Positions 3,103 through 33,137 of a stretch of DNA of 33,137 nt are shown piece by piece. The stretch spans positions 1-33,137 of the IMG/VR virus record IMGVR_UViG_3300018876_000055. One strand, given 5' to 3'. How positions within the stretch are numbered: position 1 is the first letter of the stretch; the number at the start of each line of letters is the position of its first letter. The position numbers and the translations under genes were made by a program. The notes under the pieces were generated by a model. It was not told where the DNA came from. It did not search any database and saw only the letters and a list, made by a program, of their open reading frames with translations. Source of the DNA: a virus.

Positions 3103-3345
3103 GTTAACTCCCCTAGCATTGAACGTACCGTTTGCTCTGTTCTTACGATAATCAAATGGTACACTAACACTTCGTGGATTACTCATACCTCTACCTACCC
3201 ATTTGAAAGTGTTGTATACCGTAGATGGATTTACGTGATCGTAATATCTTTGTACCCAAGTATCTTTTTGTTCGGCATATGATTCTACTTCTTCGAATGT
3301 GCCATACACATCTTCACCGTTATCCAAACGTGCTAGTTCTATCAC
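3088..3345 (-). CDS. Hypothetical protein coupled to iscU
   Basis: An 85-aa protein with a GTG start overlapping the iscU stop (GTGA, 4 nt), so translation is coupled. It is rich in Asp, Tyr and Asn with an aromatic central part (WVQRYYDHVN, YNTFKWVGRGM). It has no Cys, so it is not itself a cluster ligand protein, and no ISC-pathway family (HscB, IscA, ferredoxin, IscX) was recognised. Association with Fe-S assembly is suggested only by the overlap. Confidence 0.6.
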   Translation of the reverse strand: MIELARLDNGEDVYGTFEEVESYAEQKDTWVQRYYDHVNPSTVYNTFKWVGRGMSNPRSVSVPFDYRKNRANGTFNARGVNLDKW

Positions 3346-3764
3346 TTTTGATTGTGTTTACGATGTGCAGTTTTTTGTTCCCAATCTTTTAGAGCTTTCT
3401 TAATTGAATCCTCTGCAAGTACAGAACAGTGTAATTTTATAGGCGGTAGTTCTAGTGCTGCTGCAATATCTTTATCTTTTATTTCTTGTGCTTGTGTCAT
3501 TGTTAAGCCTTTCAGCATTTCAACAAACATAGTTGAACTTGCAATTGCACTACCACAACCATACGTTTTAAACTTAACGTCTTCTATTACGTCTGTCATT
3601 GGGTTTACTTTTAGGTCTAGTTTCATAACATCGCCACACGCTGGTGCTCCTGTCATTCCTGTTGCCACGTTGGGGTCATTAGGATCAAAGCGACCTACAC
3701 CGTGATCCTGCGGGTTGTTAAGAACGTCCTCAAAACGCTTAACCACTTTATCTGAATATGCCAT
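3342..3764 (-). CDS. iscU: IscU-type Fe-S cluster assembly scaffold
   Basis: A 140-aa protein clearly of the IscU family, the scaffold on which IscS-derived sulfur and iron are built into [2Fe-2S]/[4Fe-4S] clusters before transfer to apoproteins. All hallmarks are present: GAPACGDVMKL (Cys43, Asp45), FKTYGCGSAIASS (Cys70), ELPPIKLHC with the HscA-recognition motif LPPIK at 106-110, then His112 and Cys113. The length is close to the usual ~128, with a slightly longer basic tail. Retention of every ligand argues for an active scaffold. It is the first gene of a two-gene unit behind a sigma70-like promoter, so early expression is likely. No IscS, IscA or HscAB is visible, so it would work with the host machinery. 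Confidence 0.95.
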   Translation of the reverse strand: MAYSDKVVKRFEDVLNNPQDHGVGRFDPNDPNVATGMTGAPACGDVMKLDLKVNPMTDVIEDVKFKTYGCGSAIASSTMFVEMLKGLTMTQAQEIKDKDIAAALELPPIKLHCSVLAEDSIKKALKDWEQKTAHRKHNQK

Positions 3765-7644: not shown

Positions 7645-9114
7645 CTAGTATACACTCACTCGGTACTTTTTTGCAAACTCTTGTGCATCCAATTTATCAT
7701 TTACCATAGGTTTGCCTTTGATGTTCAGCGAAGTATTTAACAGCATAGGACATCCTGTAGCATCATTCCAGGCTTCTAGCAATCTTCGTATACCGCTACC
7801 ATCTGGTCCAACAGTTTGTACTCTGCTTGTTCCATCCACGTGGGTGATGGCAGGATACAAGTTTGGATTGGAGCATTTGGAGGTAAATTGCATATATTGA
7901 TTGTAGTGTCCTTTGAAATGCTTATTTGCATACTCTTCGAGCACCACGGGTGCGAATGGCCTAAACTGTTGCCGTTGCTTAATGCTATTAACTCTTTGCT
8001 TAATATCATTGCCCCTAGGATCAGCAAGAAGACTACGATTACCAAACGCCCTAGGGCCAAACTCAGCCCTTCCATTAGCAACTCCCGCAATGCCTTGTTC
8101 TTTGAGTTCTTTGACAAGTTTTTCAACTGGATATTTTCCTTCTATGTTGTAACCTAAGTAAGTGTGTTTCCATTCTATATGTTTTTTATTTTTGGCAAGT
8201 ACTGCACCTACACTAGAACCTGCATCGCCTGGGTTAGGCATTATCCATACATTGTCGTAATATGAATATGCAAGATGATTAGCCACACAGTTTAATGCAC
8301 AGCCTCCACTTAACACTAGGTTATTGCTTTTATATTTTCCTCGACAGTGCTTTATAATGTCTAAGAATATTTCTTCATACAGTTCTTGAGTGGCAGCAGC
8401 AATGTCTGCTTTTTGCTGCCAATCTAATTCTCCTCGGCGCCACCACATACAACCTCTATGTAAATTTTCTTTAAATTTTACACTAGGTGTAGTCCAATGG
8501 GAGTGTGGTCCTAACTTAAAAAATAGTTCCTTAATCTCATCATAATATTTTTTATGATCGCCATATGCAGCCATACCCATTAGAATATATTCATCTTCAT
8601 TGGGTTTAAGTCCTATACGTTGTGTCATTGCACTATAGAATAAACCTATACTGTGTGGGTAACCTTGACTATAAACTTTTTTAAGTTTATTTCCTACACC
8701 TTCCCAAATTGTAAAAGTTTCAAATTCTCCAATGCTATCAATGCAAACTATAGTTGCATCATCATAACCGCTTGTATAATAACTTCCTGCTGCGTGACTT
8801 TCGTGATGGTTACTGTACTCTAAGGGTGCATTAATGTTGAAACTTTGTAAGTATGATTTAATATCATTCTCGTATAAGTTCCAGCCTTGACCAGCAATTA
8901 GTTGTCTTAACGTTTTCTTAAACGGCTTTTCATACCATACAACTTTATGAGGCTCTCCCCATTGCTTTGCATAGCGAACTATACGTTTATTAAGATCAGG
9001 ATCGTTTTTCACACGACTAAATCTTTCAGTATGGCTTGCAAAAACTAATTCGTCTTTGTCAAATACTGCAAGTGATCCGTCGTGGCTGTTTGCTGATATT
9101 CCCCAAGTAATCAA
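7645..9114 (-). CDS. NodU/CmcH-family carbamoyltransferase
   Basis: A 489-aa enzyme of the O-carbamoyltransferase family (NodU, CmcH, TobZ), which makes carbamoyl-AMP from carbamoyl phosphate and ATP and transfers the carbamoyl group to a hydroxyl, often on a sugar. The N-terminal ASKHA-type fold shows SANSHDGSLAVF, NHHESHAAGSYYTSG (metal/active-site His residues) and a LSGGCALNCVANH motif. The C-terminal half contains the EFGPRAFGNRSLLADPR and FRPFAPVVL blocks typical of the YrdC-like part. Homologues are frequent in T4-like marine phages. Modification of phage DNA, virion glycan or host LPS is possible; the substrate is not shown here. Confidence 0.93.
   Translation of the reverse strand: MITWGISANSHDGSLAVFDKDELVFASHTERFSRVKNDPDLNKRIVRYAKQWGEPHKVVWYEKPFKKTLRQLIAGQGWNLYENDIKSYLQSFNINAPLEYSNHHESHAAGSYYTSGYDDATIVCIDSIGEFETFTIWEGVGNKLKKVYSQGYPHSIGLFYSAMTQRIGLKPNEDEYILMGMAAYGDHKKYYDEIKELFFKLGPHSHWTTPSVKFKENLHRGCMWWRRGELDWQQKADIAAATQELYEEIFLDIIKHCRGKYKSNNLVLSGGCALNCVANHLAYSYYDNVWIMPNPGDAGSSVGAVLAKNKKHIEWKHTYLGYNIEGKYPVEKLVKELKEQGIAGVANGRAEFGPRAFGNRSLLADPRGNDIKQRVNSIKQRQQFRPFAPVVLEEYANKHFKGHYNQYMQFTSKCSNPNLYPAITHVDGTSRVQTVGPDGSGIRRLLEAWNDATGCPMLLNTSLNIKGKPMVNDKLDAQEFAKKYRVSVY
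7647..7676 (-). promoter_or_regulatory. Probable sigma70-type promoter of helicase gene
   Basis: Minus-strand TTGCAA (7676-7671), an 18-nt spacer and TATACT (7652-7647) overlap the last codons of the carbamoyltransferase gene and lie about 30 nt upstream of the gp41 ATG. The -35 is weaker than in the other promoters here. Confidence 0.45.
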
Positions 9115-30566: not shown

Positions 30567-31643
30567 TTATACTCCGTTGCTTGTTACTGGTTCCTCTTCA
30601 ACCTCGACTGGTTCTTCGACTTCTTCCAGTTCAGGCTTTGATTTAAGATCATTCATTATCATATTTAATTTATCGCCTGTCCAGTTCTTTCTATACTCTA
30701 AATGAACTTCTCCATTTAAGTCTGTATATTTAAGTCTATTACCGTCTTTTTTAAGCAATCCTTTTGCTTCAAACAAGTCAACGCAGCCACTATAAGGATC
30801 CATACCTGTTTCATATGGAATCTTTACTTGCACTGCTTCAAATGGTTTTGCATAACGTGTTTTCATTACTTTACACGCAGCTCTAATACCATTTACTGTA
30901 GTAGTTTTATTACCATCTAAATCTTCTTTAAGTTTTAGTTTACGCATAGCAACAACAATACTACTTGCATAGATAAAGCCTTGTCCACCACTAATCTTAT
31001 CATCTGGATCAAACATATCCTGTGATGCATAAGTGTGGTTAGTACATACCATACCTACATTGTAACTACCAAACATATTAACACAGTTACGTACAAGTGC
31101 TGTTAGTGCTTTAGGCTTTCTACCCATATCACCTTTTAAATCACCTTTACCAAACTGATCAACATCTGTTGGAGTTAGTAGCATACCAAGTGAGTCAATT
31201 ACAAATAATACTTTAGGACGTTCTTCGCCTGCCATATCTCTGTATTCTTTCATAAACTCTGATACTGTTTTAGCAACATCATCAATCATTGACATATTAA
31301 GTTTAAGAAGTTTTTCTTCACTTGTGTCAACATCTAATGCGTGTAGCCATTTCTCATCAAGTGCATTCTCTGAGTCAATTAGTACTACAAAGATACCTTG
31401 TTCTTGTGCTGATTTTACAATATTGCCGGCTGCAATATAAGATTTACCTGCACCGGATTCACCTGCTAGTACAGTAACTTTACCAAGAGGTACACCTCTA
31501 TTAAAGTCACCACTAATAAGATAGTTTAGTGCATAGTTGCCTGTGCTGATCCAATCAGTAGGATCATTAAAGCCAATACCTAATCCGTCAATGGACTTTG
31601 TAAGGCTCTTTCTAAATTTAGTTACGTCAAACGCTTTTGCCAT
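30567..31643 (-). CDS. uvsX: UvsX RecA-like recombinase
   Basis: A 358-aa strand-exchange protein of the RecA/UvsX family (T4 UvsX is 391). It forms ATP-dependent filaments on ssDNA, guided by UvsY and gp32, and drives recombination-dependent replication and repair. Features: Walker A LAGESGAGKSYIAAG (61-68), IDSENALDEKW, Walker B VLFVIDSLGMLLTP, an L2-like SGGQGFIYASSIVVAMRKLKL, and a Glu/Val-rich C-terminal tail (VEEVEEPVEVEEEP). AAAGGAAAGG precedes the ATG. The leader contains a structured element at 31666-31717. Confidence 0.96.
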   Translation of the reverse strand: MAKAFDVTKFRKSLTKSIDGLGIGFNDPTDWISTGNYALNYLISGDFNRGVPLGKVTVLAGESGAGKSYIAAGNIVKSAQEQGIFVVLIDSENALDEKWLHALDVDTSEEKLLKLNMSMIDDVAKTVSEFMKEYRDMAGEERPKVLFVIDSLGMLLTPTDVDQFGKGDLKGDMGRKPKALTALVRNCVNMFGSYNVGMVCTNHTYASQDMFDPDDKISGGQGFIYASSIVVAMRKLKLKEDLDGNKTTTVNGIRAACKVMKTRYAKPFEAVQVKIPYETGMDPYSGCVDLFEAKGLLKKDGNRLKYTDLNGEVHLEYRKNWTGDKLNMIMNDLKSKPELEEVEEPVEVEEEPVTSNGV

Positions 31644-31725: not shown

Positions 31726-32733
31726 TTATTGCTGACGGTTGCGAATCATTGCAAGAATGTCTTGCGCACGACCCGATCCATTGTCCTCAGTAGTTGCAGT
31801 TTCTGCCGCTGGTGCTGCTGCTGGTGCTTCAGTTACAGGCGCTGCTGCTGGAGCAGGTTCTGCCGCTGGAGCAGGTGCAGGAGTTACCGGAGCACTTGCT
31901 GCTGGTGCTGCTGCCTTATTAGGATCGCCAGTTGCCTGACTCATTCCCGCTGGACGGAAATATTGACCCCAACGTTCCGGATCATATGCTTCACCATCAA
32001 CTGATGCTTCAAACATTTCCTTCATTACCTGAAGCTCAACTTCACCTGGCTTCTTAGGAAGGAAATCATTTAAGTTAAACAACCCGTGTTGTTCAACTGC
32101 TGCATTCTCTGTATCATTTAATGCACGTTCTTTACGTGACCATTGTGATGTAGAGTAGTCAGCATAACCACCTTTTGATGTTTTCTTAATACGGAAGTCA
32201 ACACCACGAAGATAATCTGTTGGCAATTCTTCCAACTCTGGATCCATCAAAGCACCTTTAATGATTTGATAAATCTGTGGACCAATAATAAACCTACGGA
32301 TAGGATTCTCAGGTGTTCTCTCTTCGTTAAGAGGATCGTCTGTTACAAACCCTTGGAAAATGTACGAACGCTTTTTCCAATATTTACGTCCCATATCTTC
32401 TAGTGATTTGTCTTTAAACCAACCACGTACCTCAGAAAGAATTGGACAAGTAGTACCATCGTTGTACATTTCCACACACGGAACTTGCACAATAGTATTA
32501 CGACTGTCTGTTTCTCCTTTGATACCTGCGAATGGTAATTTAATCATCGCACGTTCTACCCAAAAGAATGTGTTGTCAGCGTTACCGTCTGGTAAGAATC
32601 TTACCACGGCTTCTCTGCCTTCTTGCATATTCCAATGTGGGTAAATTGCGTTGTCACCGCCTCCAGTAGAATTACCAGATGAGCGATTGTTTGCTTCTTG
32701 CAGTTTTGCACGAATTTCTGCTAATGATGCCAT
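31726..32733 (-). CDS. 32: Single-stranded DNA-binding protein (T4 gp32 type)
   Basis: A 335-aa homologue of gp32 (T4: 301), which coats ssDNA and coordinates replication, recombination and repair. The N-terminal 20 residues (SLAEIRAKLQEANNR) form the LAST-like cooperative-binding segment. The OB-fold core includes IYPHWNMQEGREAVVRFLPDGN, VQVPCVEMYNDGTTCPILSE (two of the zinc-ligand Cys) and KYWKKRSYIFQGFV. The C-terminal protein-interaction domain has an unusual long Ala/Pro linker (about 270-315), then a mildly acidic end (TTEDNGSG) and AQDILAMIRNRQQ. It has an AAGGAGG ribosome site and a consensus sigma70 promoter. Confidence 0.95.
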   Translation of the reverse strand: MASLAEIRAKLQEANNRSSGNSTGGGDNAIYPHWNMQEGREAVVRFLPDGNADNTFFWVERAMIKLPFAGIKGETDSRNTIVQVPCVEMYNDGTTCPILSEVRGWFKDKSLEDMGRKYWKKRSYIFQGFVTDDPLNEERTPENPIRRFIIGPQIYQIIKGALMDPELEELPTDYLRGVDFRIKKTSKGGYADYSTSQWSRKERALNDTENAAVEQHGLFNLNDFLPKKPGEVELQVMKEMFEASVDGEAYDPERWGQYFRPAGMSQATGDPNKAAAPAASAPVTPAPAPAAEPAPAAAPVTEAPAAAPAAETATTEDNGSGRAQDILAMIRNRQQ

Positions 32734-32793: not shown

Positions 32794-32822
32794 ATTATAT
32801 GCAACTTTATTTATCTTGTCAA
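32794..32822 (-). promoter_or_regulatory. Consensus sigma70 promoter of gp32-uvsX operon
   Basis: Minus-strand TTGACA (32822-32817), a 17-nt spacer and TATAAT (32799-32794): a perfect housekeeping consensus. A late-like GATAAATA sits inside the spacer, so the operon could also be read late. The leader is about 55 nt and includes AAGGAGG, so this unit is not leaderless. Confidence 0.85.
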
Positions 32823-32862
32823 GTGTATTTTTAACTAAATGTGATTTTGTTTAGCCAAAAGA

Positions 32863-32882
32863 AAAGGATCCTAAGATCCTTT
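32863..32882 (-). terminator. Intrinsic terminator downstream of pqqA
   Basis: AAAGGATC (32882-32875 on the minus strand) and GATCCTTT (32870-32863) form an 8-bp stem with a 4-nt loop, followed by TCTTTT. It would end transcripts coming from pqqA just before the gp32 promoter. Confidence 0.7.
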
Positions 32883-32884
32883 CT

Positions 32885-33010
32885 TTATTCACAGTCCAAT
32901 GTTTCTAACAATCTGTGTATATCTACTTCTACTTCTTTATCTATCGGTTGGCTACATACATCGTTACTTCGAAGCCAAATCTCATCTCTGTTGCTATTGG
33001 TTTTGTCCAC
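32885..33010 (-). CDS. Possible 41-aa frame overlapping pqqA
   Basis: A second frame beginning with the GTG inside the pqqA ATG (ATGTG) runs 41 codons and stops 2 nt before the downstream terminator. It encodes an acidic peptide with two Cys ([20 protein letters not shown] and LETLDCE). The exact fit between start region and terminator makes it worth listing, but it has no ATG, no own ribosome site and no recognised family. Chance openness is quite possible. Confidence 0.25.
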
Positions 33011-33012
33011 AT
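32941..33012 (-). CDS. pqqA: PqqA, precursor peptide of pyrroloquinoline quinone
   Basis: A 23-residue peptide with every hallmark of PqqA, the ribosomally made substrate for PQQ. It begins MWTKP, has the central RFGFEVTMY core with Glu15 and Tyr19, the two residues PqqE crosslinks and PqqF/PqqG and PqqB/PqqC then process into the cofactor, and ends in ANR. Length and Glu/Tyr positions equal those I remember for Klebsiella PqqA (23 aa, E15, Y19); comparison with other recalled PqqA sequences gives about two-thirds identity by eye. AAAGGAAAA stands before the ATG. It is too short for normal gene calling. No pqqB, C, D or E is in the window, so host enzymes would be needed. It lies between two terminators. 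Confidence 0.9.
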
Positions 33013-33033
33013 AATGTTTTCCTTTATAAAGTG

Positions 33034-33069
33034 AAAAAAAATAGTGTAGCAGTTTCCTACTACACTATT
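33034..33069 (-). terminator. Intrinsic terminator upstream of pqqA
   Basis: On the minus strand AATAGTGTAG (33069-33060) and CTACACTATT (33049-33040) form a perfect 10-bp stem with a 10-nt loop, followed directly by a run of eight T (33041-33034). It ends the transcript of a gene beyond the right edge. Only 28 nt separate its T-run from... the pqqA ATG region (33012), so pqqA is read either by read-through or from a promoter hidden in TTTATAAAGG. Confidence 0.8.
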
Positions 33070-33137
33070 ATTTAAACATCTTTACGTAAAAAATCAATAC
33101 GTAAAATCATTAAAACATACTAAGTTGTTTAATTCTT

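Follow-up and report, generated by a model that had tools for sequence, protein, structure and literature searches.

A pqqA gene beside a gp32-like gene in a viral genome fragment

The DNA analyzed here (the window) is the whole of a 33-kb IMG/VR virus record (IMGVR_UViG_3300018876_000055; 33,137 nucleotides) with a G+C content of 36%. Close to one end, on the minus strand, lies a 23-codon gene, for which the sequence, strand, length and coordinates given in a first-pass annotation of this DNA were all correct on re-reading (Table 1). The encoded peptide contains Glu15 and Tyr19, the residues that are turned into PQQ, with three residues between them. The profile search proposed in that annotation retrieved the peptide with both family models, at 42.1 bits for PF08042 (cutoff 21.1; E-value 7.8e-11) and 41.7 bits for the TIGR02107 equivalog (cutoff 20; E-value 7.1e-11); as these scores lie far above the curated cutoffs, the match to PqqA is not a chance one. 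The PHROGs collection gave no family match for the 23-residue peptide. Judged by its sequence, the window gene is a genuine pqqA.

The ribosome-binding site, the terminator-bounded slot and the adjoining gp32 promoter described in the first-pass annotation were all recovered, the promoter as a perfect consensus match and the slot as a pair of hairpins on either side of the gene. Three terminator-like sites were observed, against 0.1 expected from shuffled sequences, and the hairpin that precedes the gene was considered as a candidate attenuator.

Table 1. Features of the pqqA locus and its surroundings in the window.
Feature	Coordinates	Strand	Basis
pqqA, 23 codons plus stop	33012..32941	-	translation, family profiles, conservation of the gp32 slot
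Shine-Dalgarno-like AAAGGA, 7 nt 5' of the ATG	33020..33025	-	direct reading
Terminator-like hairpin with U8, separating pqqA from the gene upstream	33040..33069	-	fold z-score -4.7
-10-like TTTAAATA, about 35 nt after the start of the box; likely pqqA promoter	33069..33076	-	shared register; inferred
Box AATGATTTTACGTATTG, common to the upstream regions of other viral and some host pqqA genes	33095..33111	-	motif enrichment; function inferred
Overlapping 41-codon GTG ORF, rejected as a gene	32885..33010	-	broken in relatives; no family match
Bidirectional terminator-like hairpin, 3' of pqqA	32862..32883		hairpin scan
Sigma-70-type promoter TTGACA-17-TATAAT, serving the gp32-like gene and not pqqA	32794..32822	-	perfect match
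gp32-like ssDNA-binding protein, slot neighbor and lineage marker	31726..32733	-	phrog_1192, 223 bits
UvsX/RecA-like recombinase	30567..31643	-	family profiles

The PqqA frame is conserved and under purifying selection

The pqqA gene is overlapped by a longer frame that opens with GTG. This frame ends after two codons in the related loci L019, L069 and L181 and after 13 codons in L049, and nothing in Pfam, TIGR or PHROGs matched it, while the PqqA frame is intact in every gp32-clade relative compared; the frame conserved among relatives is thus that of PqqA. In the window, L034, L041, L078 and L123 the GTG frame is open, and the ends of its products resemble one another (...ETxDCE). The tail of the overlapping frame (...RLLETLDCE; window 32885-32940, minus strand) is kept with changes in the same four loci, just before the terminator, and may be what is left of a further short gene.

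Synonymous differences prevail among the pqqA genes of the gp32 slot, with pS of 0.57 and pN of 0.12, and the sampled viral pqqA genes gave values of 0.64 and 0.14, respectively. Viral pqqA is under purifying selection, with a pN/pS ratio of about 0.2.

The gene lies in a jumbo-phage context

With gp32 and uvsX as its neighbors, the window pqqA sits in a bona fide phage context. The first-pass annotation had spoken of marine T4-like genomes; the neighboring gene does encode a phage ssDNA-binding protein, but its product scored below the cutoff of the gp32 model PF08804 (23.3 against 26.8 bits) and its best named relatives are the jumbo phages PA5oct, Atu_ph07, Phosso and 121Q, so that 'T4-like' should read jumbo phage. 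A 356-kb viral record encodes a gp32 that is 73% identical to that of the window; a megablast search with the whole window did not find a near phage.

A scan of related genomes for the same slot, also proposed in the annotation, showed that the gene order recurs: pqqA and gp32 share a strand, with pqqA directly upstream, in 11 gp32-clade loci, among them L019, L025, L034, L041, L049, L057, L069, L078, L123 and L181. Several are near-copies of each other or of the window, and others share only 74-80% gp32 identity. Among more distant gp32 relatives pqqA was not seen beside gp32, and in the 356-kb record and a 71-kb relative, which carry both genes, pqqA is not near gp32; the slot is therefore not universal.

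Elsewhere in the window, an IscU/NifU_N-like Fe-S scaffold protein is encoded at 3342-3764 (minus strand; PF01592, 137 bits), a gene present in few other phage records; a link to PqqE, an Fe-S radical SAM enzyme, is conceivable. A carbamoyltransferase gene (7645-9114, minus strand; Pfam match) and, between 14000 and 29500, many ORFs that read as glycosyltransferase- or methyltransferase-like suggest a large sugar-modification region.

Orphan pqqA genes are widespread in viruses

Scanning IMG/VR with the DNA pattern for G[FL]EVT[ML]Yxx[NS]R returned at least 120 loci, and all 120 matches listed encode PqqA-like peptides. Hits obtained with this core pattern were not used to assess conservation of Glu15 and Tyr19, because that would be circular. 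A second scan with an N-terminal pattern, which does not require the two residues and whose totals are likewise lower bounds, yielded 108 complete new peptides among the matches listed, every one of them 23 residues long and with both Glu15 and Tyr19 kept; conservation of the pair, which the first-pass annotation had named as a check, thus holds in relatives collected blind to it. Viral pqqA is widespread, occurring on more than 200 environmental phage contigs. The last two residues of some viral peptides are NK or NS instead of NR. A second viral type, MWTKPTYxxIRLGFEVTMYFKN[RS] (L002, L004-L006, L046, L056, L060, L075 and L093), departs from the Methylophilaceae pattern and suggests, by its sequence, pqqA-bearing phages of other hosts.

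Neither pqqB-E nor methanol dehydrogenase was found at any of the 232 viral loci among the matches listed (1.87 Mb, window included), whereas pqqB accompanies pqqA at 31 of 120 host loci; the viral genes are therefore orphans and not contamination from host operons. Within the 33-kb fragment the window gene likewise has no linkage to pqqBCDE, a linkage that is usual and not required.

The gene also recurs in isolated phages that are unrelated to that of the window. Venkman, P19250A, MEP301, MEP401, MEP402 and four Melnitz isolates in the phage database carry PqqA peptides 77-87% identical to the window's, and the published lineages of the pqqA-bearing Methylophilales isolates are called distinct. 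A 2023 paper counts Venkman, MEP301 and Melnitz as the OM43 phage isolates to date and adds MEP401 and MEP402; all five have pqqA. In the Methylophilales phage records inspected, the pqqA strand has no annotated gene at its site, and in the Melnitz record an ORF is called there on the opposite strand. The expectation that gene callers would easily miss such a gene is borne out in these records: even a gene present in all reported OM43 phage isolates can be overlooked during annotation because it has only 23 codons. A phage pqq gene goes unmentioned in the MEP401/402 (2023), MEP301 and Melnitz papers; in the last of these PQQ appears solely as an addition to the medium. The sole earlier report of viral pqqA that we found concerns VP_266 of Lake Baikal (PMC7678222). 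Viral pqqA is thus a known but barely reported kind of gene, to which the window adds one member.

A methylotroph of the Methylophilaceae is the probable host

GTDB genomes matching EMR[FY]GFEVTMY carry record titles that are almost all Methylophilaceae (Methylotenera, Methylophilus, Methylobacillus, Methylovorus, OM43 and Methylopumilus), and the best match to the window peptide among 369 evenly drawn Gammaproteobacteria is an OM43 genome, at 87%. These titles and this one class sample make a methylotroph of this family the most likely host of the window phage. Methanol dehydrogenase is encoded in Methylophilaceae genomes, and the window host would share it if this assignment is right. The IscU-like protein was dropped as a host marker, being too conserved to place the host.

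A shared box and a putative promoter upstream of pqqA

The viral box has the consensus TTTAATGATTTT[CA]nnTA[TG]G, with a peak near -90 and a TATAAT-like hexamer about 38 nt later. It is present in 63 of 218 viral pqqA upstream regions, a density of 1.8 per kb, while the remainder of these contigs has 0.013 per kb. The ratio is somewhat inflated by the motif having been picked by eye on these data and is still more than 100-fold in the viral set. In host pqqA upstream regions it occurs in 10 of 126 (0.50 against 0.015 per kb). In the form TAATGATTTTCAYTAGG the box is absent from five host genomes; in some hosts the box is an inverted repeat (GCCTAATGATTTTCATTAGGC in L247). The box is perhaps the site of a regulator. 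Given the box at 33111-33095 and TTTAAATA at 33076-33069, the window pqqA likely has its own promoter.

A structured leader RNA precedes other pqqA genes

A structured element of 50-70 nt precedes pqqA in 28 of the viral contigs searched and in the isolate MEP402. In 27 of these 29 loci it ends 16-30 nt 5' of the pqqA ATG; the exceptions are L118, where another N-terminus stands in frame ahead of the PqqA core, and L416, which ends soon after the element. Its layout comprises a helix P1, an internal loop UCAA/GAUCU, a 6-bp P2 with strong covariation and a variable P3. Two observations provide fair tests of this structure, further counts for the inner stem being inflated by the way it was selected. 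The inner stem, found by matching of sequence only, is 92% paired, against 71% with shuffled partners and 79% in the best of 2000 shuffles, and the outer helix, which lay outside the selection and was predicted by RNAalifold, shows compensatory changes in all four of its pairs. Leader-bearing viral loci include L009, L019, L063, L069, L092, L123, L181, L376, L388 and L433, and host loci are L472-L478, L221, L224, L302 and L310.

Among 80 Methylophilaceae genomes, a covariance model found the leader in seven. Each of the seven measures 1.2-1.4 Mb and has one strong match, which in every case precedes a tandem pqqA pair. Under stricter filters, an OM43 genome alone has it in a class sample of 274 genomes, and it was found at none of 76 gp32 loci without pqqA. 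Rfam has no family at this position, and our literature search turned up no description of a riboswitch for pqqA or PQQ. These data point to an undescribed structured RNA, a candidate regulator whose occurrences seen here all lie ahead of pqqA, in OM43 genomes and their phages. The window pqqA does not have the element.

Discussion

Each molecule of PQQ uses up one PqqA. The remaining pathway enzymes are catalytic and single-copy, so more precursor would raise or maintain PQQ. Methylophilaceae have 3-12 pqqA genes and usually one pqqBCDE set (PMC4109929), and a passage of PMC11317620 that cites Ge 2015 describes PqqA availability as rate-determining in Methylovorus MP688; for these reasons we regard a boost of the precursor as the best explanation of the phage gene. 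Methylorubrum extorquens AM1, which has orphan copies, tolerates deletion of pqqA (PMC11317620), and an extra copy therefore need not matter in every host.

It is likely, in our judgment, that a genuine phage PqqA feeds host PQQ synthesis and so sustains the methanol dehydrogenase of a Methylophilaceae host during infection. In the proposed sequence of events, phage pqqA would be transcribed from its own promoter and translated during infection; host PqqD would bind the peptide, the radical SAM enzyme PqqE of the host would crosslink Glu15 to Tyr19, and a host protease, PqqB and PqqC would complete the cofactor. The added precursor would then raise or maintain PQQ for the periplasmic methanol dehydrogenase, and methanol oxidation would be kept running. 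The first-pass annotation had suggested a supply of PQQ to periplasmic alcohol or sugar dehydrogenases; supply is the best available reading, with the beneficiary now narrowed to what is likely Methylophilaceae methanol dehydrogenase.

The annotation had also raised the opposite effect, in which the peptide acts as a decoy or inhibitor that occupies PqqD or PqqE and reduces the PQQ level, with slower methanol oxidation or diversion of SAM as possible aims. If strongly expressed, a mimic of the substrate could titrate PqqD, and the NK and NS ends of some viral peptides might be read in this way, but NK is the commonest end of Methylophilaceae host PqqA in our sample, the hosts themselves are multi-copy for pqqA, and a decoy would be expected sometimes to alter or lose the crosslinked pair, which is kept in all 108 peptides listed. 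Strict conservation, the host-type sequence, multi-copy pqqA with single-copy pqqBCDE and PqqA limitation make supply of the precursor appear the better reading, and we consider a decoy improbable. It is also quite improbable that PqqA or a product derived from it has another role in infected cells, such as lanthanide handling or signaling. Regulation of orphan pqqA copies is separate from that of the pathway's remaining genes, and a connection with the uptake of lanthanides has been suggested (PMC11317620), but the PQQ-forming residues are conserved along with the remainder of the core, and nothing in the window, the IscU-like gene aside, suggests metal handling.

An origin of viral pqqA as host DNA misassembled into viral contigs, or as a non-selected passenger, is highly improbable. 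One record named as a phage, 'Acinetobacter phage MD-2021a' (CAKLQF020000010.1, L437), does carry ppk and pqqABCDE and is therefore evidently a piece of bacterial chromosome, but the complete genomes of isolated phages carry pqqA, the gene lies beside phage gp32 and uvsX in many independent contigs, and the low pN/pS speaks against a passenger. That the GTG frame is the real gene and the PqqA match its by-product is scarcely credible, since its uninterrupted run and like ends in the window and four relatives are set against its breakage in four others, its want of a family match and a PqqA frame that is intact throughout.

The phage peptide resembles bacterial PqqA, including the orphan copies of Methylophilaceae, in its 23 residues, MW.KP start, E15-x3-Y19 spacing and GFEVTMY core. 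Like those orphan genes it stands apart from pqqBCDE, and unlike them it lies in a phage, beside gp32. The Baikal VP_266 report likewise describes a methylotroph virus with PqqA and proposes an equal benefit (PMC7678222); that population also encodes methanol dehydrogenase, whereas in the jumbo-type fragment studied here pqqA was found and methanol dehydrogenase was not seen, and we find pqqA to be common among phages of the host family. Venkman, MEP301, MEP401/402, Melnitz and P19250A are other phage types than that of the window. Cyanophages with photosynthesis genes such as psbA provide a limiting part of the host energy machinery. The product of psbA is an enzyme subunit, while phage PqqA would be a cofactor precursor that is consumed.

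Methylotrophs that are abundant in aquatic habitats depend on PQQ for their first step in using methanol. If several unrelated kinds of phage, jumbo phages included, supply its precursor, then cofactor supply would be a bottleneck that phages have found repeatedly, and viral infection would be tied to the turnover of methanol in the sea and in fresh water. It is probable that, during infection, phages of methanol-eating bacteria feed the machinery with which their hosts oxidize methanol, an idea that is testable now since isolated OM43 phages with pqqA exist. A specialist would be surprised most by how general pqqA is among phages of methylotrophs, and by the leader RNA.

The leader may represent a new class of cofactor-pathway regulator. 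As a tentative reading, the OM43 and phage element could be a riboswitch that responds to PQQ or a precursor and senses the state of the pathway; phages would then carry the host control along with the gene, and the sublineage of the window would have lost the leader and escaped that control. Separately, the gp32-clade relative L049 has a glutamine riboswitch (RF01739, 54 bits) at 7999-8048 on the plus strand, about 210 nt upstream of its pqqA.
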